A stretch of 20,100 nt of DNA from a virus, in IMG/VR virus record IMGVR_UViG_3300009183_000456, positions 1 through 20,100 of that record; one strand, given 5' to 3'. A program made the translations under genes and the position numbers. Shown piece after piece: positions 3,605 to 11,529 of this stretch. Positions within the stretch are counted from its first letter, which is position 1. Each line of letters starts with the position of its first letter. Under the pieces are notes generated by a model that saw nothing but the letters and a program-made list of their open reading frames with translations, had not been told where the DNA came from and ran no database searches.

Positions 3605-4086
3605 TTCGTTTCTTTTTCTGCTCTAAAAATGCTTTGTACTTCTATTTCCCTAACTAGGTCATCCCACATCTGCTTTTCTCTGGGCTTATCCTCTCGCCAT
3701 TCTGGACGAACAAATGCTGGTAAACCAACTAAAATTGATGGAACAGCATCCTGCATAACTAACTTGACTGTGCGTGGATCTGAGTCAACAAACCAATTTA
3801 ATTTGCCATATACAGCATTAAGATCACGAATGCGGTCACGAATACTCTCAGGTGTTGTAGTTGATATTACATCTATATGCGAGTACTTATAACCTTCTAG
3901 TTTTGCCCATCCTTGAATCAAATCTGCTCTAGTTGTACCAGTAGCCAAGATAATCATGTTTCCGTGATATTGATTGTAAAGAGCATTCCATAACCCTCTT
4001 GATTCAGGTGATGGTTGTCGGGCGCCAATGGACATTGCTTTATCCGTTGTTGGATACGCCAGTACATCAAATGTAACTACGATCAT
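3601..4086 (-). CDS. HAD-like hydrolase-fold protein, divergent motif I
   Basis: The 161-aa product looks like a haloacid-dehalogenase fold. A first strand VVTFDVLAYP carries Asp7 at the nucleophile position. NMIILATGTTR (43-53) fits motif II with Thr, and LNWFVDSDPRTVKLV (96-110) fits the acidic motif IV. The second aspartate of the usual DxD is missing (Asp7-Val-Leu9), so phosphatase activity is uncertain; a binding-only or altered role is possible. Similar phage proteins include polynucleotide phosphatases. It is joined by ATGA overlaps to the genes on both sides, so the three genes 4562-2168 are probably translated as a unit. Confidence 0.62.
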   Translation of the reverse strand: MIVVTFDVLAYPTTDKAMSIGARQPSPESRGLWNALYNQYHGNMIILATGTTRADLIQGWAKLEGYKYSHIDVISTTTPESIRDRIRDLNAVYGKLNWFVDSDPRTVKLVMQDAVPSILVGLPAFVRPEWREDKPREKQMWDDLVREIEVQSIFRAEKETK

Positions 4087-4562
4087 TTATTTACGTCAAT
4101 GTCGTACAATCCTATTTCTTTTCGTTCTTTATGTGCTACATAGGATGCGCAAGGGCAGTACATACATAGGTATTGGCGTTTTGCAGGAGGAACACCAGTT
4201 TTACGTCCAATAATCTTAGATTCGTCACACCAATCTATGCATGAATCTTTAGGTCTGTTATGTGAGTTAAAGCAACGTAAAGCATCTACTTTAAGTTCAT
4301 CTCTAAAGTCTTTAATATAAACATCTAATTCGCCAAGTTTGTTTGTTAATACAGTTTCCATATCTAATTTTGCTGCAGTATCTGCATCTACTCTGAATAT
4401 TGAAGCATTGCAGTTTTGAGGATCTGGCACTTGAGCGTTATGCCTATCGCATATTTCACGCAATTCCATGTCATACTCAGCAGGACCTTCATATGGCTTT
4501 AGTTTCCACATGGTGTTGTGTGTTTTACAAACTAATAATCGTTCATCTGGTTTATCTGACAT
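4083..4562 (-). CDS. Cys-rich probable metal-binding protein, unknown function
   Basis: This 159-aa protein is not recognised. It has three cysteine-containing patches: LVCKTHNTMW and EICDRHN near residues 10-42, NCNASIF at 50-56, and a C-terminal set with CFNSHNRPKDSCIDWC (97-112) and YLCMYCPCASYV (131-142). The last looks like a CxxCxC knuckle and may bind zinc or iron-sulfur. A middle helix (62-95) separates the halves. The ATG at 4562 has only a weak GTGGAA ribosome site. The 50 bases upstream contain a candidate -10 box, so it may be the first gene of the 4562-to-2168 group. Confidence 0.72.
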   Translation of the reverse strand: MSDKPDERLLVCKTHNTMWKLKPYEGPAEYDMELREICDRHNAQVPDPQNCNASIFRVDADTAAKLDMETVLTNKLGELDVYIKDFRDELKVDALRCFNSHNRPKDSCIDWCDESKIIGRKTGVPPAKRQYLCMYCPCASYVAHKERKEIGLYDIDVNK

Positions 4563-4612: not shown

Positions 4613-4942
4613 TTATGGGTGGACAGGCCCATCTTCATGCAAAGAAGCTTGAGCGGCTGGATGCATAACTATAGATTTACGAACATCATCATAATTTATG
4701 CCACCCATGTCCGTTATTGCAACGGGGTTTGGAATAATGCCCAATAACTGACCATAGTTATGAATCATGTTGTCTGACATAGTGGACAAATGCGCATATA
4801 ATTCCCCAGATCTAGGGTGCAACTTCTGGGAAGGATGCATACCTCTGGAGACTTGACGAGAAATATCATCTCTAGTATCCATACCTTTTTGCTTGTTTAT
4901 TTTGCGTTTTCTAAACTCATTCATGTCTATTAACTCACCCAT
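4613..4942 (-). CDS. Small hypothetical protein, end of the modular array
   Basis: The 109-aa protein is unrecognised. Its N-terminus (LIDMNEFRKRKINKQKG, 4-20) is basic and resembles that of the 62-aa protein at 10797-10985 near the other end of this gene array, which has IVDMAEYKGRKARKQ. The rest contains YAHLSTMSDNMIHNYGQLLG (49-68), probably a helix, and a polar tail with VMHPAAQASLHEDG. It has no cysteine and no membrane segment. The ATG at 4942 begins 6 bases after the stop of the upstream gene. It is the last member of the array before a 50-base gap. Confidence 0.65.
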   Translation of the reverse strand: MGELIDMNEFRKRKINKQKGMDTRDDISRQVSRGMHPSQKLHPRSGELYAHLSTMSDNMIHNYGQLLGIIPNPVAITDMGGINYDDVRKSIVMHPAAQASLHEDGPVHP

Positions 4943-4948
4943 GATTAC

Positions 4949-5173
4949 TTACCAACCGTCTGTATTTTTGTCAAACTTTTGAGGGGTGTCCACACCATCG
5001 TTGTCCATGGCTACTTTGTAAGCACTTTCAGCATCTTCTTGTTCTAAATCTTTCTGTAAGTCAGGACTTAGAATTCGTTGAACTGTTGCGCCTCCGCCCA
5101 TGTCAAACGTAGTCATTCCTTTTTTACTAACCTTGCGATTAGGATTATGTCGTTCGTCTTTACCATTAGCCAT
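4949..5173 (-). CDS. Small MANGKD-motif protein (array paralogue)
   Basis: The 74-aa product opens with MANGKDERHNPNRKV, almost identical to the start of the protein at 7266-7589 and related to that at 6969-7262. The DNA of this part (5136-5177) differs from 7552-7593 at only about three positions, so the start region was copied recently or is under strong constraint. The remainder is acidic and polar (LSPDLQKDLEQEDAESAYK), probably disordered or a short helix. The function is unknown. Confidence 0.7.
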   Translation of the reverse strand: MANGKDERHNPNRKVSKKGMTTFDMGGGATVQRILSPDLQKDLEQEDAESAYKVAMDNDGVDTPQKFDKNTDGW

Positions 5174-5177
5174 GATT
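5136..5177. repeat. Dispersed repeat copy A (MANGKD start region)
   Basis: These 42 bp cover the first codons and the bases just before the ATG at 5173. They match 7552-7593 at all but about three positions, including the bases next to the start codon. A more diverged copy lies at 7225-7266. Confidence 0.75.
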
Positions 5178-5431
5178 TATATTTCTTTCTCCCAATCAAA
5201 TAATTGGGGTTTAGGTTCAACCAACCTAACTGTTGGCTTAGCTTTAACAAGTGCTGTTCGTCTTTTCCATTCTGAATGTGTTTCAAAATCTTTTCTTTTA
5301 GTATCTTTTCTAGGGACATACCGATCAAAAGTTTTATCGTTACCTACGTCAGTAACTTCTTCGTAGCCATTTATTGAAACACCATTAGAGTTTTTATGAG
5401 GAATTGGGCGCATTCTATGATCGTATGCCAT
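5177..5431 (-). CDS. Small basic protein with GYEE motif
   Basis: The 84-aa product starts MAYDHRMRPIPHKNSNGV and contains NGYEEVTDVGNDKTFDRYVP (21-40), related to the GYEEYEDGTIVDLP unit that occurs twice in the protein at 7266-7589. The C-terminal half is strongly charged (RKDTKRKDFE, EWKRRTALVKAKP) and ends PQLFDWEKEI. The ATG at 5431 is preferred because it sits 16 bases after the upstream stop; in-frame starts up to 5512 would overlap that gene by 65 bases. The ribosome site (AAAG) is weak. The function is unknown. Confidence 0.6.
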   Translation of the reverse strand: MAYDHRMRPIPHKNSNGVSINGYEEVTDVGNDKTFDRYVPRKDTKRKDFETHSEWKRRTALVKAKPTVRLVEPKPQLFDWEKEI

Positions 5432-5447
5432 AATCTTTGTAATCACG

Positions 5448-5687
5448 TTAGTCGTGAGTACACTCACCTTTAGAGCATTCATCCATAGTCCAGCCACCTT
5501 TTGTTGCTTCATGTCGTCTGAACTCTAAGTTTCTTTTTCCTAAAGCTGTAAATGGCATTTGTTTGCCAGTCTTCAAAGTTACGTGAAATGGAATCATCCC
5601 AGAAACGCCAGATTCATCCATGACGTTTATGCCTTTGTCTGAGACATCAATTGTGCTTGGGTCATTACCCTCAGAAACGTCTGTCAT
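5448..5687 (-). CDS. Small hypothetical protein
   Basis: The 79-aa product is acidic at its N-terminus (MTDVSEGNDPSTIDVSDKG). A more globular part follows: IPFHVTLKTGKQMPFTALG (32-50) and FRRHEATKGGWTMDEC (56-71). Two cysteines near the end (CSKGEC) might bind metal or form a disulfide. It begins 5 bases after the upstream stop. No family is recognised. Confidence 0.62.
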   Translation of the reverse strand: MTDVSEGNDPSTIDVSDKGINVMDESGVSGMIPFHVTLKTGKQMPFTALGKRNLEFRRHEATKGGWTMDECSKGECTHD

Positions 5688-5692
5688 GTCAG

Positions 5693-5896
5693 TTACAAAC
5701 TTAGTGTTGGGTCTTTAACCTCAGCTAAAGGTGAGCGACTAGTAATGTTGTACTGTTCGTTAATTACCATAGAGCGCTTGAGTATAGGGCCAGTTTCTAC
5801 TACCCCACCACGATCTGGAGAAAGGTTTTTGAAGGTTCCGTCAGTTGCGCCTAAGCGAAGATCTGCGTTTTGAGAGCGAGAAGAGTTTACAGCCAT
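5693..5896 (-). CDS. Small hypothetical protein
   Basis: The 67-aa product begins MAVNSSRSQNADLRLGATDG and continues with FKNLSPDRGGVVETGPILKR and a polar tail. It has no cysteine, no clear domain and no membrane segment, and is probably partly disordered. It fits the spacing and style of its neighbours (12 bases after the upstream stop), which is the main reason to call it a gene. Confidence 0.58.
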   Translation of the reverse strand: MAVNSSRSQNADLRLGATDGTFKNLSPDRGGVVETGPILKRSMVINEQYNITSRSPLAEVKDPTLSL

Positions 5897-5908
5897 AGTA
5901 CTAGTTTA

Positions 5909-6634
5909 TCACCTTGAACGTCTGTTAGATGGACCATTGATAAACGTAAGAGAAGAATCACCAGCACCTGGTGTTGGTGGATTGTTTTTTGGTGTTCTTG
6001 GTGTTTTACTTGCTGGTGTATTTGTTTTCTTTGCCGCTCTCTTTGTTGCAAGCTCGGCTACTCTTTCTGGTGTTTTTGGGGTGTATGGTCCTCTTGGTTT
6101 TCCTGTATTCTTAGCAGGTTGTGCAGGTCCACCTAGTTTTACGTTTTGATTAAATTCATTAAAAGCGGATGCTCCAGTTGCATCGTTAATGTCACCGCCA
6201 GCTATTGCGTTTTTATTTACGCTAAAATCCTGCATTGTAGGATTAAAATTAAAATCACCACCGCCAGGATTGTTAAATGTGTTGGTTTGTGTTGTACCAT
6301 CATCGGACATAGAGCTGGTTTGACTCATACCTTGAGGTTGACCTTGACCTTGTGATTGGCTTTGATTTCTTGATCTTCTTGAGTTACCCCTACCATTATT
6401 ATTAAAAGGACTTAGGTAGTTATAAGGGTTAAACATGGAAGCAAGATCATTCGTCATGCCATTAGCTGCTGGTGGTGCTTGATTACTTATACCAAAGTTA
6501 TAGCCACCAGAACCACTACTACCAACACTGCCCAAACCTTGCCTTGTGGGACTTGGGGTTATGTCTCGTGGATTACGCCCAGTGGCGTTGTATAGCGGAG
6601 CTACGGGAGATGCACCAAATCTGTCAGAAGCCAT
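5909..6634 (-). CDS. Long disordered protein with SVNK/AGG module and basic tail
   Basis: This 241-aa protein is low complexity: Gly/Ser-rich (35-47), Asn/Tyr-rich (68-80), Gln/Ser-rich (90-107) and Gly/Asn-rich (118-132). Residues 138-156, SVNKNAIAGGDINDATGAS, closely resemble SVNKGAYAGGNINNAVGAT in the 508-aa protein at 7897-9423. The C-terminus (178-241) is rich in Lys, Pro and Thr (TPKTPERVAELATKRAAKK), again like a basic TPEQQAARTARERAAR stretch in that protein. No enzyme domain is seen. Being long, disordered and basic-tailed, it could be a scaffold, an internal virion or a nucleic-acid-binding protein; this is inference. Confidence 0.7.
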   Translation of the reverse strand: MASDRFGASPVAPLYNATGRNPRDITPSPTRQGLGSVGSSGSGGYNFGISNQAPPAANGMTNDLASMFNPYNYLSPFNNNGRGNSRRSRNQSQSQGQGQPQGMSQTSSMSDDGTTQTNTFNNPGGGDFNFNPTMQDFSVNKNAIAGGDINDATGASAFNEFNQNVKLGGPAQPAKNTGKPRGPYTPKTPERVAELATKRAAKKTNTPASKTPRTPKNNPPTPGAGDSSLTFINGPSNRRSR

Positions 6635-6651
6635 AGATACAGTTTACTCTA

Positions 6652-6969
6652 TTACCAAAGGTTGTTCATAGAATAACGACCAGAACCTGTAAAAGCATCG
6701 TCATTCATCTGTGCTCTTGTAAGCATGTTTACTGCTCCAGATACCCAAGAACGGTAAGTTGGGGCGTTTCTATCAACAGATAAAATGTCCATAACACCAA
6801 GTTCTTGTTTAATAAAACCCCTACGCTCTGGCATCAACTGCTGAGGTACGACTGGGCGTATATTTCTAATTGTTTCAGGATCAGAAATAGCAACTTCCAA
6901 TGCAGTATCCACTAACATCTCTTCACGAGATTGCCAAGGTCTACGAGTGCGGAAGTTATCTACAGGCAT
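6652..6969 (-). CDS. Small globular hypothetical protein
   Basis: The 105-aa product is one of the few array members that looks folded. Its N-terminus MPVDNFRTRRPWQSREEMLV leads into a helix (VDTALEVAISDPETIRNI), then VVPQQLMPERRGFIKQELGV and a C-terminal helix (YRSWVSGAVNMLTRAQMNDD). The family is not recognised. The start overlaps the upstream stop by one base (TAATG), indicating translational coupling. Confidence 0.66.
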   Translation of the reverse strand: MPVDNFRTRRPWQSREEMLVDTALEVAISDPETIRNIRPVVPQQLMPERRGFIKQELGVMDILSVDRNAPTYRSWVSGAVNMLTRAQMNDDAFTGSGRYSMNNLW

Positions 6970-7262
6970 TAGTAACCTGCTTTTACGTTCTTTTTTGCTT
7001 GTCTTTTAGCCCCAAACCTAGTTCTCTTTTTGTTAGCAGTGTCAATAGTAGTATCACCAATTTCTTTTTTAGCAACTACTGGAAAATATCCTTTTTGTGG
7101 AGTTGCAGGTGTAGACCCAACCTCAACAGGAGTTACACCAGGATCATCTTTCATTTGAGAGTTTTTTGGCATGTCTTTAGACATTTCGCCAACATACCCA
7201 TAAGGTTTAGTTCTTGTTACAGACCGATTAGGGTGATTACTAGTGTCTTTTCCGCCAGCCAC
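6969..7262 (-). CDS. Small MAGGKD-motif protein (array paralogue)
   Basis: The 97-aa product starts at a GTG with MAGGKDTSNHPNRSV, a diverged version of the MANGKDERHNPNR opening of two other array members. The rest is polar and basic: GYVGEMSKDMPKNSQ, a VTPVEVGSTPATPQKG linker, FPVVAKKEIGD, and a basic end with RTRFGAKRQAKKN. It contains no cysteine. The repeat with the other two starts is visible in the DNA as well (7225-7266). The function is unknown. Confidence 0.66.
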   Translation of the reverse strand: MAGGKDTSNHPNRSVTRTKPYGYVGEMSKDMPKNSQMKDDPGVTPVEVGSTPATPQKGYFPVVAKKEIGDTTIDTANKKRTRFGAKRQAKKNVKAGY

Positions 7263-7266
7263 AATT
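7225..7266. repeat. Dispersed repeat copy B (diverged MAGGKD start region)
   Basis: These 42 bp surround the GTG start at 7262. They share the CGATTAGGG end and the TCTTTTCCG block with copies A and C but differ in the middle. Confidence 0.55.
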
Positions 7267-7589
7267 TAAGATCTCGAGCTTTTTGGTAAATCTACAATAG
7301 TGCCATCTTCATATTCTTCATACCCTGAAGGTCCACTTCCATGCAAAACAGTTTTAACAAGATTTAATCCTGGAGCACTAGGATCATTTCTATACACTCT
7401 TTTACCTTTTGTATGATCGTAATCATAGTCGTAACGTGGAACAGTTCCATTTTTTGTACGCAGTTCAGATGGTAAATCTACAATAGTACCGTCTTCATAC
7501 TCTTCGTAGCCTGAAGGTCCACCCTCGTGTAAGACAGTTCTAACAGGTCTACGATTAGGGTTATGTCGTTCGTCTTTTCCGTTAGCCAT
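7266..7589 (-). CDS. MANGKD-motif protein with duplicated GYEE unit
   Basis: This 107-aa protein starts MANGKDERHNPNRRPV and then carries two copies of a 25-residue unit: VRTVLHEGGPSGYEEYEDG... and VKTVLHGSGPSGYEEYEDG..., each ending GTIVDLP. They are separated by about 43 residues containing the aromatic/acidic stretch PRYDYDYDHTKG. It ends PKSSRS. The ATG at 7589 is chosen because GGGGAG stands 8 bases upstream and the upstream gene stops 2 bases before it; a start at 7643 would overlap that gene. The function is unknown. The unit is also seen once, diverged, in the protein at 5177-5431. Confidence 0.7.
   Translation of the reverse strand: MANGKDERHNPNRRPVRTVLHEGGPSGYEEYEDGTIVDLPSELRTKNGTVPRYDYDYDHTKGKRVYRNDPSAPGLNLVKTVLHGSGPSGYEEYEDGTIVDLPKSSRS
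7285..7359. repeat. Direct repeat, GYEE unit copy 2
   Basis: These 75 bp encode the second GYEE unit and are clearly similar to 7471-7545. Most differences are at third codon positions, so the duplication is kept at protein level. Confidence 0.7.
7471..7545. repeat. Direct repeat, GYEE unit copy 1
   Basis: These 75 bp encode the first GYEE unit and pair with 7285-7359, 186 bp apart in the same frame of the same gene. Confidence 0.7.
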
Positions 7590-7593
7590 GATT
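7552..7593. repeat. Dispersed repeat copy C (MANGKD start region)
   Basis: These 42 bp around the ATG at 7589 are nearly identical to 5136-5177, about 2.4 kb away. Confidence 0.75.
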
Positions 7594-7891
7594 AGCTCCC
7601 CATTGGTGAGTGAAATTGATCGCCAGGATGTTGACGATACCATTGTCCTTCAAGTTTCATATCTCTGTTAACTTCATAACCTTCTCTAGTAACAACCGTA
7701 TTATTTGTATTAGTAAGTCTGCGTTTTGACGCTAAATCCATAGCATGTCGGTTTGCATCCATTTCAGCAGTTTCGCCTCTAAACTCTGCATGATGTTTAC
7801 CATCAACAGTTACTATAGAGTGCATTCCACTCGTTGAGTGCTGTTGGGAAACTCCCCAACCATGATACATTCCTAATTCAAAGTCGCTCAT
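7592..7891 (-). CDS. Small hypothetical protein
   Basis: The 99-aa product has a possibly folded core: MYHGWGVSQQHSTSGMHSIV (8-27), then VDGKHHAEFRGETAEMD (29-45) and a helix NRHAMDLASKRRL (47-59). A polar C-terminus follows with EGYEVNRDMKLEGQWYRQHP. It is His-rich. The AAAGGAT ribosome site 7-8 bases before the ATG at 7891 lies in the end of the upstream intergenic sequence or beyond the neighbouring stop. No family is recognised. Confidence 0.62.
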   Translation of the reverse strand: MSDFELGMYHGWGVSQQHSTSGMHSIVTVDGKHHAEFRGETAEMDANRHAMDLASKRRLTNTNNTVVTREGYEVNRDMKLEGQWYRQHPGDQFHSPMGS

Positions 7892-7896
7892 ATTAA

Positions 7897-9423
7897 TTAT
7901 CCTTTGTTAGTTGGTCGGCTACCACGAGATGCATTTTGCGCTCGTGGATGTCCTGATGTTGCATTACCTGAAGTGCTGGCAGTTACCCCGCCTTTACCTG
8001 AACTAGTTGCTTTACCTGAAGTAGTTGCAGTTACTGGTCCATATCCACCGCTTATCTTTTGTGTGTGTGTATTACCAACTGTTGCGCCAACTGCATTGTT
8101 TATGTTTCCACCAGCATATGCACCTTTGTTAACACTGTAATCCCCACCAGACGTAGGTGGTTCTGGAGCATTTTGTCTTGATGGGGCAGGATACGGTGAA
8201 GCTGGTGCAGACGTTTGTGGTGCAGACGTTTGTGGTGCAGACGTTTGTGGTGCTGAAGCTGCAGGTGGTTGCAATGCTTGTGGTGCTGAAGCAGATGGCT
8301 TAACCATTGATTGTGCCCAGTTCTTTGCGCCTTGACCAAAATGACTCATTCTTTCCCTAAGGCGTGGTGGTAGCACTGTACTTTGTTCACCATCATTAAC
8401 TGTTTCTTTTTCATGATCAAACAGTTTTACTTCTGGCTCACCATTTAGATGTTCCCAAGCCTTTGGGTCGGATGGGCCAAATAGGGGTACATCTGTGCGT
8501 GGGTACCCTATTTCAGCTACTGGTTTTGGTGCAGTTCCTGCTTTTTGTTCTGCTACCGTACCAAAAATACTTTTTGGCATAGCATCAGATGAAGATGAAG
8601 ATGCTGGATCACGGCGTGTAGGTGTTGTCTCTAGAGGATCTACAGGATTTGCTGCTTTTTGCTCTGCATATGTACCAAACATGTTTGGCTTTAATGCAGG
8701 AGTACTTGGGTCTTCAGTTTTTTTAGAAATCTCGGTAAACTTTTCTTTAGCCATTGGAAGAGAAATGCTATTCATGTCACTAACAGATACTTGGTTTAAC
8801 GTATCTACAAGAGAAGTTTTTGGAGTTTTTGCAATTTCAGAAGTTACTGCATCTGATGGAGCACTTGTTGCATCAGCTTTTTCTTTAGATGCTTCTCTTG
8901 CAGCACGCTCTCTTGCAGTGCGAGCTGCTTGTTGTTCTGGAGTCCTTGTACGTGAAGATTTAGTTCTTGCTGGGGTAGCATCGGCGGTAGCATCGGCGGT
9001 AGCATCGGAAACTTTGCCCACTACGGCTTCTACTGCAGGAGTCATATTCTTTCCTGCGCCGCTAGCCTTGCCTTTTTTACCTTTTTTACTTGCCATGTCA
9101 GCATCCTTTGTAATAGTAGTAGTAGTTCCTTGATACGAAGTTCCTTCAGGGTAATATTTGTTTGGTCCTATCTTGTATGAACCGCCAGCTTCTCTTACAT
9201 CAGCAAGAATTTGCTCATAATCTGCTGTAGATGGATTTAACCGTCTTTTTTTCTCTTTTGCTAATTGTTCTGGAGTAATGCCTAGATTCTTTTTGTCGGT
9301 ACGTGCATCCTGCCTTTTCCTTTTTGCAACTTCGTCAGGTGGCAATAAATCAATCATTTCTTGTGCCGACATCACTGGCACGCCGTCCTCATTTACCTTT
9401 GGTTTCTTTGCTTTTTTAGCCAT
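7897..9423 (-). CDS. 508-aa modular disordered protein with internal repeats
   Basis: This is the largest array member. Residues 1-25 open MAKKAKKPKVNEDG. Residues 26-95 look partly helical (MIDLLPPDEVAKRKRQ, YEQILADVREAGG). From 110 a basic stretch MASKKGKKGKASG starts what looks like a second protein. Then come an ADAT repeat (142-149), a basic TPEQQAARTARERAAR helix, two (M/I)FGT(Y/V)AEQKA units about 40 residues apart, LFGPSDPKAWEHLNGEP, Ala/Pro repeats (SAPQT three times) and the SVNKGAYAGGNINNAVGAT module at 430-448. It ends in Thr/Ser/Gly repeats. The ATG at 9423 is preferred; an in-frame GTG at 9441 is possible. No enzyme domain is seen. A role as scaffold, virion-internal or assembly protein is speculation. 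Confidence 0.72.
   Translation of the reverse strand: MAKKAKKPKVNEDGVPVMSAQEMIDLLPPDEVAKRKRQDARTDKKNLGITPEQLAKEKKRRLNPSTADYEQILADVREAGGSYKIGPNKYYPEGTSYQGTTTTITKDADMASKKGKKGKASGAGKNMTPAVEAVVGKVSDATADATADATPARTKSSRTRTPEQQAARTARERAAREASKEKADATSAPSDAVTSEIAKTPKTSLVDTLNQVSVSDMNSISLPMAKEKFTEISKKTEDPSTPALKPNMFGTYAEQKAANPVDPLETTPTRRDPASSSSSDAMPKSIFGTVAEQKAGTAPKPVAEIGYPRTDVPLFGPSDPKAWEHLNGEPEVKLFDHEKETVNDGEQSTVLPPRLRERMSHFGQGAKNWAQSMVKPSASAPQALQPPAASAPQTSAPQTSAPQTSAPASPYPAPSRQNAPEPPTSGGDYSVNKGAYAGGNINNAVGATVGNTHTQKISGGYGPVTATTSGKATSSGKGGVTASTSGNATSGHPRAQNASRGSRPTNKG
8204..8248. repeat. Tandem repeat, 15 bp x 3, in the 508-aa gene
   Basis: Three perfect copies of GGTGCAGACGTTTGT encode the TSAPQ repeats. 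This is a likely slippage-prone site; it is in frame, so copy-number change would not disrupt the gene. Confidence 0.85.
8974..9008. repeat. Tandem repeat, 12 bp x about 3, in the 508-aa gene
   Basis: GGTAGCATCGGC occurs twice in full and a third time lacking the last base, encoding ADAT repeats. It is in frame, like the 15-bp repeat downstream. Confidence 0.82.
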
Positions 9424-9476
9424 GGGCGTTACATTCTCCACTGAAGACGAATTAGACTCTCCTACTTTACCACAAG

Positions 9477-9968
9477 CTATCTCCAGCTAGGCTTAAGCGT
9501 TTTTAACTGAGCACGACGCTCTGCGTCAATATACTGTTGGTTATCCTGTTCCATTGTTCGTGGTATACCTTTAGGACCAACTTTGCCATCGTTTGTGAGA
9601 ACCACTGGCATTGCTCCTGGTGGGGCAAACTTCATGCCTTTAGATTCGTATGAGATACCAGTCCATAAATTAAACTCATCTGGCCAAACGTAATCACCTG
9701 GATTTACTCTTTCGCCTTTGTGCACACCACGAGAATATTGTCGGGCATTAGTGCGACTCAATGTTCCTAAAGTTTTATCTTGTCGTCGGTTTGCCGACAT
9801 TGTGCCGAGGTATCCGTCTGGATACGTGGTGTCTTGAAGTGTTCTGTAGCCTGCTAATTGATAATCTTTGTTATTGCGAAACATAGGAGCTGGCCCAAAC
9901 ATTGGTTGGGATGAAGATTCTTGCTGAGCGTTGGGTGTTTGCCAATCAGCAAAGGATTGATTAGCCAT
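9477..9968 (-). CDS. Hypothetical protein, possibly structural
   Basis: The 163-aa product begins with a polar region (MANQSFADWQTPNAQQESSS), then FGPAPMFRNNKDYQLAGYRT and DTTYPDGYLGTMSANRRQDK. A likely folded part follows: VNPGDYVWPDEFNLWTGI (88-105) and GMKFAPPGAMPVVLTNDG (110-127). The end is a basic helix (YIDAERRAQLKTLKPSWR). It is rich in Tyr, Pro and Gln and has no cysteine. The family is not recognised; the composition resembles minor virion proteins, but that is weak. The start overlaps the upstream short gene as TAATG. The 53-base gap after it shows nothing notable. Confidence 0.68.
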   Translation of the reverse strand: MANQSFADWQTPNAQQESSSQPMFGPAPMFRNNKDYQLAGYRTLQDTTYPDGYLGTMSANRRQDKTLGTLSRTNARQYSRGVHKGERVNPGDYVWPDEFNLWTGISYESKGMKFAPPGAMPVVLTNDGKVGPKGIPRTMEQDNQQYIDAERRAQLKTLKPSWR

Positions 9969-10093
9969 TAGTTACCAGCGTTACTATGATCAAAAGAAGT
10001 CATGAACCCACCAGCCGCTCCACTCACTGCTGAAATAGGACGTGGTTTAGCCTTAACAACTTTCTTAGAAGCTTTCTTCTTTTTAGTAGCCAT
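9968..10093 (-). CDS. Lys-rich 41-aa protein
   Basis: This short reading frame gives MATKKKKASKKVVKAKPRP, then ISAVSGAAGGFMTSFDHSN and a stop. It is joined on both sides by one-base TAATG overlaps: its ATG at 10093 overlaps the stop of the DUF6321-like gene, and its stop overlaps the ATG at 9968. That arrangement is the main evidence that it is real. The basic N-terminus could bind nucleic acid; nothing more can be said. Confidence 0.62.
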   Translation of the reverse strand: MATKKKKASKKVVKAKPRPISAVSGAAGGFMTSFDHSNAGN

Positions 10094-10353
10094 TAGCAAT
10101 CCCATTTACGCAAAGCCAATGCTTTACGTGTTGGTTCACCATTTGGCTTCTTCATTGGACCTTCCATGCCTCCCATGCGAGCACAGAACGACTTGCGTCG
10201 TGCAGCAGACTTAGGAGATTTCTTCGCTTGCTCGGCAGAGACAGGTGGTTTGAGGTTATGTCCTTCCTTTTTAGCAGAGGCACGACCTTTAGCATTTAAA
10301 CCACCTTCAGGGTTTTTACCCTCTTTTCGTTGCCATGCAGGTGACTTAGCCAT
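10093..10353 (-). CDS. DUF6321-like small basic phage protein
   Basis: The 86-aa product has the strongly conserved look of a small phage family (DUF6321 as I recall it). The pattern is MAKSPAWQRKEGKNPEGGLN, GRASAKKEGHNLKPPV, a central SPKSAARRKSFCARMGGM and the ending PTRKALALRKWDC. The function of the family is unknown to me. The protein is very basic, with two cysteines, and could bind nucleic acid. It is linked by TAATG overlaps to the short genes on both sides, giving a tight trio of Lys-rich mini-genes between 9968 and 10487. The family assignment is from memory and needs a profile search. Confidence 0.78.
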   Translation of the reverse strand: MAKSPAWQRKEGKNPEGGLNAKGRASAKKEGHNLKPPVSAEQAKKSPKSAARRKSFCARMGGMEGPMKKPNGEPTRKALALRKWDC

Positions 10354-10487
10354 TATTTCTTTTTTGCTTTCTTTACTGGTTTCTTGGTTGATTCTGATTC
10401 AGGTACGCAGTTAGGAACCATTTTACCATTCTTCTTCTTCATCCCTACTTGTACATAGCCTTCCCAGCACGGTCCTTGTTTTGCCAT
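10353..10487 (-). CDS. 44-aa basic phage mini-protein
   Basis: The reading frame gives MAKQGPCWEGYVQVG, MKKKNGKMVPNCVPE and a Lys-rich tail ending AKKK. The block KNGKMVPNCVP is a pattern I recognise from small proteins in many unrelated phages, usually also with an early cysteine (here Cys7 and Cys27). The ATG at 10487 follows the upstream stop by one base, and its own stop overlaps the next ATG as TAATG. The function is unknown. Confidence 0.72.
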   Translation of the reverse strand: MAKQGPCWEGYVQVGMKKKNGKMVPNCVPESESTKKPVKKAKKK

Positions 10488-10488
10488 A

Positions 10489-10794
10489 TTAGTAACCATT
10501 CCGTCTTTTCTTGTTGATATCTCCGTTGTACTTCTGCCATATCATATAATTGTCTCTTGATTTTTGTTCACTGCGTTCAGCTTCATCAAAATGATTTGAG
10601 CCTATTGACATGTATGACATTGGATTAATGCCTGAGTTTTTGTCTGGATCTTTATCTGGCAAACCACCAGTTTTAGTTCGTGGTTTTTTAGGTGGCTTTT
10701 TACTGCCACCGCCTGATGCTGTTTGTGTACTAGAGTCTTTCCACACTTTATTTTTTAAGTATGGGCCGCTAATTTCATCTAAGCGGTTTTCCAT
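10489..10794 (-). CDS. Small disordered Lys/Pro-rich protein
   Basis: The 101-aa product starts MENRLDEISGPYLKNKVW, then has a disordered Gly/Lys/Pro/Asp centre (GGGSKKPPKKPRTKTGGLP, 28-46). The C-terminus is possibly helical and charged (SNHFDEAERSEQKSRDNYMI) and ends KKRRNGY. The start is 2 bases after the upstream stop. The family is not recognised. Confidence 0.62.
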   Translation of the reverse strand: MENRLDEISGPYLKNKVWKDSSTQTASGGGSKKPPKKPRTKTGGLPDKDPDKNSGINPMSYMSIGSNHFDEAERSEQKSRDNYMIWQKYNGDINKKRRNGY

Positions 10795-10796
10795 AA

Positions 10797-10985
10797 CTAC
10801 TCAGTCCAAACTTCAGTTTTTCCAGCACCAGTTGGACGAGGCATTCCATAAGGAGAAGCGTCGTCATTAAGATTAGATTTTTTAGAAGGGTTATGAGAAG
10901 CATCTGTTTGTTTGCGAGCTTTTCTTCCTTTATACTCTGCCATGTCCACAATATTAGACTTTTGTGATTTACGAATATAGCCCAT
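10797..10985 (-). CDS. 62-aa basic protein with VDM.EY..RK motif
   Basis: The product reads MGYIRKSQKSNIVDMAEYKG, then RKARKQTDASHNPSKKSN and an acidic/Pro tail. The N-terminal IVDMAEYKGRKARKQ parallels LIDMNEFRKRKINKQ in the protein at 4613-4942, at the far end of the array. SHNPSK also echoes the HNPNR of the MANGKD proteins. It is unrecognised and probably disordered. Confidence 0.6.
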   Translation of the reverse strand: MGYIRKSQKSNIVDMAEYKGRKARKQTDASHNPSKKSNLNDDASPYGMPRPTGAGKTEVWTE

Positions 10986-10987
10986 TT

Positions 10988-11236
10988 TTATTTGTAATAT
11001 CCATCTTTGTCATATCGTTCCATTTTTTCATTATGGTCTTTAACGCCTTTAAATCCATCTTTAAGATAAGCTGCTTCAGCTCCGCTTGCTGGTATGTCCC
11101 TACCTAGTGTTTTGACAGCGCTTAATCTTTCTCGTTCTTGTTCATGTACTTGAGTGTACAACTTACCTGCGTCTGCAGAAGTAATGCCGTGTGGATCGTC
11201 GTAGCGTCCACCATGGTGTTTTTTATGAAAAATCAT
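10988..11236 (-). CDS. Small charged helical hypothetical protein
   Basis: The 82-aa product opens MIFHKKHHGGRYDDPHGITS, with a His/Gly-rich start that could bind metal. A long charged helix follows (DAGKLYTQVHEQERERLSAV, 22-41), then GRDIPASGAEAAYLKDGFKG and an aromatic, Lys-rich end (YDKDGYYK). It starts 2 bases after the stop of the SpoVS-like gene, so the two are probably translated from one message. The family is not recognised. Confidence 0.64.
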   Translation of the reverse strand: MIFHKKHHGGRYDDPHGITSADAGKLYTQVHEQERERLSAVKTLGRDIPASGAEAAYLKDGFKGVKDHNEKMERYDKDGYYK

Positions 11237-11238
11237 TG

Positions 11239-11529
11239 TTACCTCAATACTGGTTTAAAGGAAATAGCCGAAATGCTTTCACCGTTCTCACCAATAATAT
11301 CATCAAAACCAATAATGAAATAAAGATCTATGCCTCGTGGGGCAACAAAACCTCTTGCAATAGCGGCAGCTTTTGCACCTTGATTAACAGCACTTGCACC
11401 AATGGCTCGTATCTTAGGTAAATGCCCTGCGACAATTGATCGGGCAAGAATAGAGCCAACACTTTGAGGGTTGCTGCTTCCTGATACCTTTAAGACATCT
11501 TCAACTTTCTGATTAAGTTCTTGTGACAT
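11239..11529 (-). CDS. spoVS: SpoVS-like (stage V sporulation protein S family) protein
   Basis: The 96-aa product matches the SpoVS family through almost its whole length: VLKVSGSSNPQSVGSILARS (12-31), KIRAIGASAVNQGAKAAAIA (39-58), RGFVAPRGIDLYFIIGF (59-75) and a closing AISFKPVLR. SpoVS is a small Alba-like fold protein, a regulator of septation and coat assembly in Bacillus and implicated in nucleic-acid binding. The usual length is about 86-90 aa, close to this one. The ATG at 11529 is chosen for its GGGAG ribosome site 5 bases upstream; starts further up lack one. The 72 bases before it (11530-11601) hold no gene and no convincing promoter, though TTGCAA occurs there. In a phage it may act as a nucleic-acid-binding or developmental regulator; this is inference. 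Confidence 0.85.
   Translation of the reverse strand: MSQELNQKVEDVLKVSGSSNPQSVGSILARSIVAGHLPKIRAIGASAVNQGAKAAAIARGFVAPRGIDLYFIIGFDDIIGENGESISAISFKPVLR

Follow-up and report, generated by a model that had tools for sequence, protein, structure and literature searches.

What joins a run of eighteen small, adjoining genes in a phage genome? We examined a 20.1-kb virus fragment (the window; 20,100 nucleotides, positions 1 to 20,100 of IMG/VR record IMGVR_UViG_3300009183_000456) in which positions 4613-11236 hold 18 minus-strand open reading frames (ORFs), g01 to g18, that abut or overlap. The initial annotation, made from this DNA alone, had described this tightly coupled array correctly, and had proposed that its products form one family of short disordered proteins. 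We find that many array proteins of these phages share a short N-terminal tag in front of variable bodies, and that g08 and g13 share an internal segment specific to each phage.

The same phage is present on a 69,252-bp IMG/VR contig (L001, G001). Simple gene calling on this contig gave a portal, a major head protein, a protein of tape-measure size and replication genes, and sheath- and baseplate-type genes were assigned by eye. WhiB, which is taken as an actinophage marker (PMC10202952), RecA and the family A polymerase (PolA) were confirmed by Pfam. The phage is a contractile-tail actinophage, and its family is freshwater actinobacterial. We compared the array across about 200 related contigs and searched its genes by tblastn against 80 related loci.

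A constant N-terminus on variable bodies

When the array ORFs of relatives are listed, several small proteins in each phage begin alike and then diverge. The common beginning is a 17-residue tag with the consensus MA(R/K)G(K/E)D(E/T)R(H/N)(N/H)P(N/K)R(K/R)VxR. Over all loci, it is found on 117 distinct small proteins from 48 contigs, which fall into 37 body clusters; its carriers in the window are g10, g11 and g17. Across cluster representatives, the information lies in residues 1-17 and is at background level from residue 18 on. The MA(N/G)GKD..NR motif of the initial annotation held up well, as the match between g10 and g17 lies far beyond shuffles (z = 11.2).

A position weight matrix was built on 12 tags and applied to all start codons in eight contigs of full or nearly full length. 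Tags scored 31-46, compared with less than 11 for shuffled N-termini (20 rounds), and all high-scoring matches began at start codons within the array. We also used a matrix-free test, in which two proteins of one locus were counted as sharing an N-terminus when their first 18 residues scored at least 28. Within arrays, 69 of 1,963 pairs did so, many of them repeating one pair in near-identical contigs and not independent events. Outside the array the count was 1 of 5,020, and this sole pair is a full-length paralogue; shuffles gave 1, 0 and 0.

We then compared the proportions of differing synonymous (pS) and nonsynonymous (pN) sites. For tag codons in 18 within-genome pairs, pS is near saturation (0.71) and pN is 0.25. 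Therefore, it is the peptide that is conserved and not the DNA. In the bodies of tagged pairs (codons 19-43), pN is 0.72, equal to pS. A second tag, TDHRGxPxGxNxRxTPR (pS 0.61, pN 0.20), and a third, AGHRDDGTxAEDKAHHxGRxVSR, behave in the same way in other subclades. Tags are somewhat more alike within a phage than between phages (identity 0.56 versus 0.47; 0 of 2,000 permutations), as expected if each lineage has its own partner for them or if gene conversion is at work.

Several modules recombine with the tags: IVDMxxYK, which follows the tag in 23 proteins, DDAxxxGIPRP (as DDA..G(I/M)xRP in 10 proteins), KKPPKKPxTKTG, and a Zn-ribbon seen as small CxxC...CxxC ends in six tagged proteins. 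Separate parts of one tagged 136-residue protein of L192 match g02 (z = 8.6) and g03 (z = 6.7) of the window. This apparent fusion is direct evidence of short modules moving between genes. Together with the shared N-termini and the recombining modules, it bears out the earlier proposal that the array grew by duplication and module shuffling. Two further motifs noted at the outset, SVNK and IDM, stand out clearly in relatives, whereas the window by itself gives them marginal support, with scores that do not reach the best of 500 shuffles. The fourth, GYEE, is at chance level between g10 and g16 (z = 1.3) and is instead a repeat inside g10.

Most array products look disordered by measures that are composition proxies rather than trained disorder predictors. 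The array has a mean TOP-IDP score of 0.164, the remaining small proteins of this phage one of 0.082 (P = 2.7e-6). In terms of charge and hydropathy, 15 of 18 array proteins fall in the disordered region, compared with 21 of 57 in that control group. The low complexity noted at first was not borne out, as the entropy of the products is not significantly below that of the other small proteins. Neither are they all short, as g08, g13 and g07 demonstrate (Table 1). In comparisons with relatives, pN/pS was below 1 for 16 of 16 genes with orthologues (range 0.10-0.85). Therefore, these are real genes, and they are under purifying selection.

Few small disordered proteins of phages are annotated, and aligning them is difficult; an N-terminal tag is a handle for finding them. 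A common tag also predicts a common partner of the tagged proteins. Such phages occur in many IMG/VR metagenome contigs, and core genes of the cassette are also present in the isolated Streptomyces phages Alone3, LuckySocke, BRock and GiJojo.

A phage-specific segment in g08 and g13

The flanks of g08 and g13 follow each protein's own family, whereas an internal segment of 20-50 residues follows the phage. The segments are N/G/Q-rich (N 18%, G 17%, A 9%, Q 8%) and unrelated between phages. Across nine segment types, scores for chosen segments were 76-176 in own pairs and did not exceed 44 in any mismatched pairing. Because these first segments had been picked for matching, the test was repeated with unselected sequence, comparing the last 200 residues of g08 with the entire g13. 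Own pairs gave a mean z of 9.4 and others 0.4, and the true assignment was the best of 362,880; the weakest own pair, type I (L138), reached z = 3.5, and one mismatched combination of this type scored higher.

A wider scan found z >5 in 13 of 33 non-redundant loci and added types J (L166) and K (L167). No match was found in deeper relatives, where candidates were picked by position only, or in L144, where the end of g08 is aberrant. In three genomes searched, the segment is limited to g08 and g13, with two copies per genome. Segment codons within g08/g13 pairs have a pS of 0.61 with a pN of 0.19. Therefore, the copies are old and have been held together at the protein level. These segments are a rare case in which sequence alone suggests an interacting pair of disordered proteins, and natural mismatched alleles are available.

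Pfam gave no match to the g08/g13 segments. Searches of bacterial genomes returned no relative of two segment types, which leaves host-protein mimicry without support for these two. A 358-aa protein of G003 has an 8-mer in common with g08; this was considered as a link to the capsid protein and rejected, as the G003 protein is not the capsid protein.

The arrangement of g08 and g13 resembles amyloid signalling pairs (RHIM, HET-s, and the BASS motifs of bacterial NLR/Bell gene pairs), in which a short N/G/Q-rich segment recurs in two adjacent genes, agreeing inside each genome but varying from one genome to the next. For BASS motifs, and for a related motif of archaea, occurrence in neighbouring genes has been described (PMC8086366). 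Likewise, the g08/g13 motif is short, is matched in two neighbouring genes and covaries between genomes. In contrast to the known pairs, no NLR or Bell domain was seen, and the likeness is architectural. Similarity to known families of amyloid signalling motifs, as represented by three published peptides, was at the level of composition only (mean z 0.27-0.44). The amyloid idea is therefore one of architecture only.

It is conceivable, but in our judgement unlikely, that g08 and g13 form a two-protein, self-specific pairing through their allele-matched N/Q/G-rich segments, possibly by cross-beta contacts, with incompatible types and with the pair as a scaffold on which tagged clients dock. If so, matched segments would let the assembly of one phage exclude the components of a co-infecting relative.

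Neither the tag families nor the matched segments are described in the open-licence literature that we searched. They are what is new in this locus; DUF6321, SpoVS and the accretion of small genes are ordinary.

Where the tagged proteins may go

A constant end with variable cargo looks like the pattern that a sorting peptide produces. Our preferred reading, which we hold tentatively and at rather less than even confidence, is that these genes form a recombining cassette for disordered proteins with short docking peptides, whose products are likely head-bound and resemble the internal proteins of phage T4. The tag would bind one common phage partner and deliver the variable cargo bodies there, and paralogues would diversify by body swaps behind the tag. 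Through their segments, g08 and g13 would show self-specific recognition, either of one another or of a common partner. The assembling head would be the most likely destination, and the bodies would travel with the DNA into the next host, as T4 internal proteins do. Both the virion location and any cross-beta pairing are hypothetical.

T4 internal proteins combine a capsid-targeting sequence with highly diverse bodies, and at least one of them counters a host nuclease (PMC3012670). Like the array proteins, they are small and very variable with only a short targeting peptide in common (PMC3012670), and their number and bodies vary between close relatives. The array shows the same hallmark, a short peptide common to otherwise dissimilar small proteins. 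It differs in that its tag, of about 17 residues, has a sequence of its own and the phage is not T4-like.

Two observations, both of them weak, favour the head as the destination: g04 and g05 have relatives encoded near head and packaging genes, and the element TTGTAATG was not seen upstream of the array. Peptides of the g04/g05 type are encoded in a gene block beside the portal in DSL-LC01, between gp17 and gp16 in Syn33, and near the terminase and portal in MEP402, and proteins encoded amid head and packaging genes of other phages contain the g04-type peptide. TTGTAATG is a candidate early promoter element, with nine minus-strand copies at 11.7-22.8 kb of G001, mostly just upstream of small early-type genes.

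Three observations weigh against a head-bound cassette. No protease cleavage site was seen by eye behind the tag, although no cleavage prediction was run. AlphaFold2 gave no fold for g07 and g12 (28-29 homologues; mean pLDDT 53 and 54), so that a structural link to capsid parts is absent. Finally, some array proteins of relatives end in QLxLF, the known form of the sliding-clamp motif. Such an end is found on 6 of 3,764 distinct ORFs of these phages, and five of the six are array proteins located between g07 and g08 (Table 1). It is absent from the window array and present in array proteins of four relatives, and it suggests that some members touch the host replisome and have a role in replication or host takeover.

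An intracellular hub or host takeover is a serious rival, and a possible one even if we do not think it probable. The tag would recruit variable effectors to a common target within the cell, such as the replisome, a phage factory or a host protein, where the bodies would act on different host proteins; nothing would enter the virion. Besides the QLxLF ends, this fits the position of the cassette after the replication genes (RecA, PolA and resolvase) and SpoVS, an Alba-like nucleic-acid binder, as well as the Zn-ribbon bodies of six tagged proteins. It fits less well with the lack of the early-type element upstream of the cassette and with g04/g05 relatives among the structural genes of other phages. 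Head delivery and replisome contact would be compatible if a single hub received a mixed set of clients from the cassette. The initial choice of virion-internal or host-takeover proteins was a fair pair of options, both of them hypothetical.

The shared N-termini could also be traces of tandem duplication, providing homology for body-swapping recombination through a peptide that binds nothing. Tag copies are clustered, and the g17 tag DNA is near-identical to L002 tags (pS 0.10-0.17, in a stretch of just 17-20 codons) in a gene that is otherwise diverged (pS about 0.7), which suggests exchange through the tag. However, a functionless trace would decay like the bodies, whereas tags keep a low pN at nearly saturated synonymous sites. 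We regard this explanation as improbable.

Ordinary accretion, in which unconnected small genes gather and their charged disordered products resemble each other by chance, is very improbable as a full account. In its favour, small genes of no known function commonly accrete in phages, most non-core genes are absent even from moderately close relatives, and three of the four motifs first noted are marginal or lacking when the window is taken by itself. Against it, the matches are reproduced neither by shuffles nor by control small proteins of the same phages. This contradicts the account for the tag and the matched segment, while it may hold for individual genes.

Core genes, known families and surroundings

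The array is not one family. Relatives of g07, g12 and g14 are present in most related loci of sufficient length, down to about 30-40% identity by tblastn. Both g07 and g14 are matched in Streptomyces phages too, and g14 is kept across subclades and in Alone3 and BRock. Among annotated phages, core-array relatives were found only in the Streptomyces phages Alone3, LuckySocke, BRock, GiJojo and pSt2308; GiJojo is described as a BS-cluster myovirus (PMC11465772). In Alone3, the homologues of g07, g12 (a g12-like gene) and g14 are genes 179, 180 and 182. The order in Alone3, BRock and GiJojo is SpoVS, two small genes, g07, a g12-like gene, a small basic gene and g14, followed by cell-wall genes, and Alone3 and BRock retain the adjacency of SpoVS to the cassette. 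This order is that of the window core, but there are three small extra genes compared with 15 in the window, and no tag was seen by eye in Alone3 or BRock. SpoVS-g07-g12-g14 is a deep core in common with Streptomyces BS-cluster myoviruses. Non-core array genes come and go among close relatives. In another subclade, the place before g07 is taken by a protein of 1,685 aa (L019:12447-17504) or 1,340 aa (L027:12263-16285).

Two members belong to separate known families. The g05 product matches DUF6321 (PF19846) over positions 1-72 of 72 with 88.6 bits (gathering threshold 28.5), and g04 contains the GPCWEGY..VPNC peptide; the corresponding known proteins are those of DUF6321, phrog_4689, phrog_727 and phrog_10346. 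Elsewhere both peptides can share one long protein, whereas the window has two short neighbours. These families are known but have no assigned function in any phage, and literature searches gave nothing usable on DUF6321 or on virion data for BS-cluster phages. SpoVS matches PF04232 with 69.8 bits (gathering threshold 24).

Table 1. Features of the array and its relatives. Plain positions refer to the window; L-prefixed positions refer to related loci. Starts of g06, g10 and g16 were corrected by homologues or tag position.
Feature	Position	Strand	Description
g18	4613..4942	-	109 aa; IDMNEFRKRK module N-terminal; orthologue pN/pS ~0.5; IVDMxxYK module recurs in relatives
g17	4949..5173	-	74 aa, tagged; tag 5123-5173, MANGKDERHNPNRKVSK
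g16	5177..5431	-	84 aa; starts MAYDHRMRP; resembles DHRG tag of relatives (by eye)
DHRGxPxGxNxRxTPR tag family (compared with g16)	L033/L036/L038/L039
g15	5448..5687	-	79 aa
g14	5693..5896	-	67 aa, core gene; N-terminal MAVNxSRSxNxxLxxGATDGxxKxxxPxRGG
g13	5909..6634	-	241 aa, disordered
g13 matched segment	6128..6223	-	SVNKNAIAGGDINDATGASAFNEFNQNVKLGG
g12	6652..6969	-	105 aa, core gene
g11	6969..7262	-	97 aa, tagged, GTG start; tag 7212-7262, MAGGKDTSNHPNRSVTR
g10	7266..7589	-	107 aa, tagged; tag 7539-7589, MANGKDERHNPNRRPVR; internal repeat GPSGYEEYEDGTIVDLP
g09	7592..7891	-	99 aa
g08	7897..9441	-	514 aa, disordered, basic; alternative start 9423
g08 matched segment	8044..8136	-	SVNKGAYAGGNINNAVGATVGNTHTQKISGG
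g07	9477..9968	-	163 aa, core gene; PDGYLGT and RGVH invariant
g06	9968..10093	-	41 aa, basic
g05	10093..10353	-	DUF6321 protein; Pfam PF19846, 4.4e-25
g04	10353..10499	-	GPCWEGYxQxGMKKKxGKxVPNC peptide; PHROG matches, best 1.1e-10
g03	10489..10794	-	KKPPKKPRTKTG module
g02	10797..10985	-	IVDMAEYKGRK and DDASPYGMPRP modules
g01	10988..11236	-	82 aa; HHGGRYDDPHGIT close to N-terminus
SpoVS (Alba-like), heads cassette	11239..11529	-	PF04232, 1.7e-19; 70-95% identical in close and intermediate relatives
QLKLF/QLRLF/QLELF-ended array proteins between g07 and g08	L006:13455-14165, L006:14166-14720, L012:13974-14954, L166:3106-4065, L167:2945-3886

The two QLxLF-ended proteins of L006 have a long N-terminal region in common. 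Upstream of many array genes (for example L033:15075 and L036:14185), TACTAATG junctions recur that couple a stop to a start and are often preceded by an AGG-type ribosome site; many array proteins thus end in Tyr. The frequent C-terminal GY/HY was therefore rejected as a peptide motif and is probably a by-product of these coupled starts.

Rfam gave no match within the window, NCBIfam and PADLOC searches gave no matches, and PDB sequence profiles gave nothing useful. Immediately after the array lies a gene for a Cys-rich 159-aa protein (4083-4562) that is kept with the array in distant relatives (25-70% identity). A 478-aa protein at 2168-3604 matches phrog_887 (queuine tRNA-ribosyltransferase-like, 1.4e-35), has no Pfam match, and is possibly a DpdA-like DNA 7-deazaguanine enzyme. 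Beside the portal, an HslV/proteasome-like peptidase (L086:8079-8705, equal to G001 68079-68705; phrog_1040, 3e-23) could be the head protease of this phage family.

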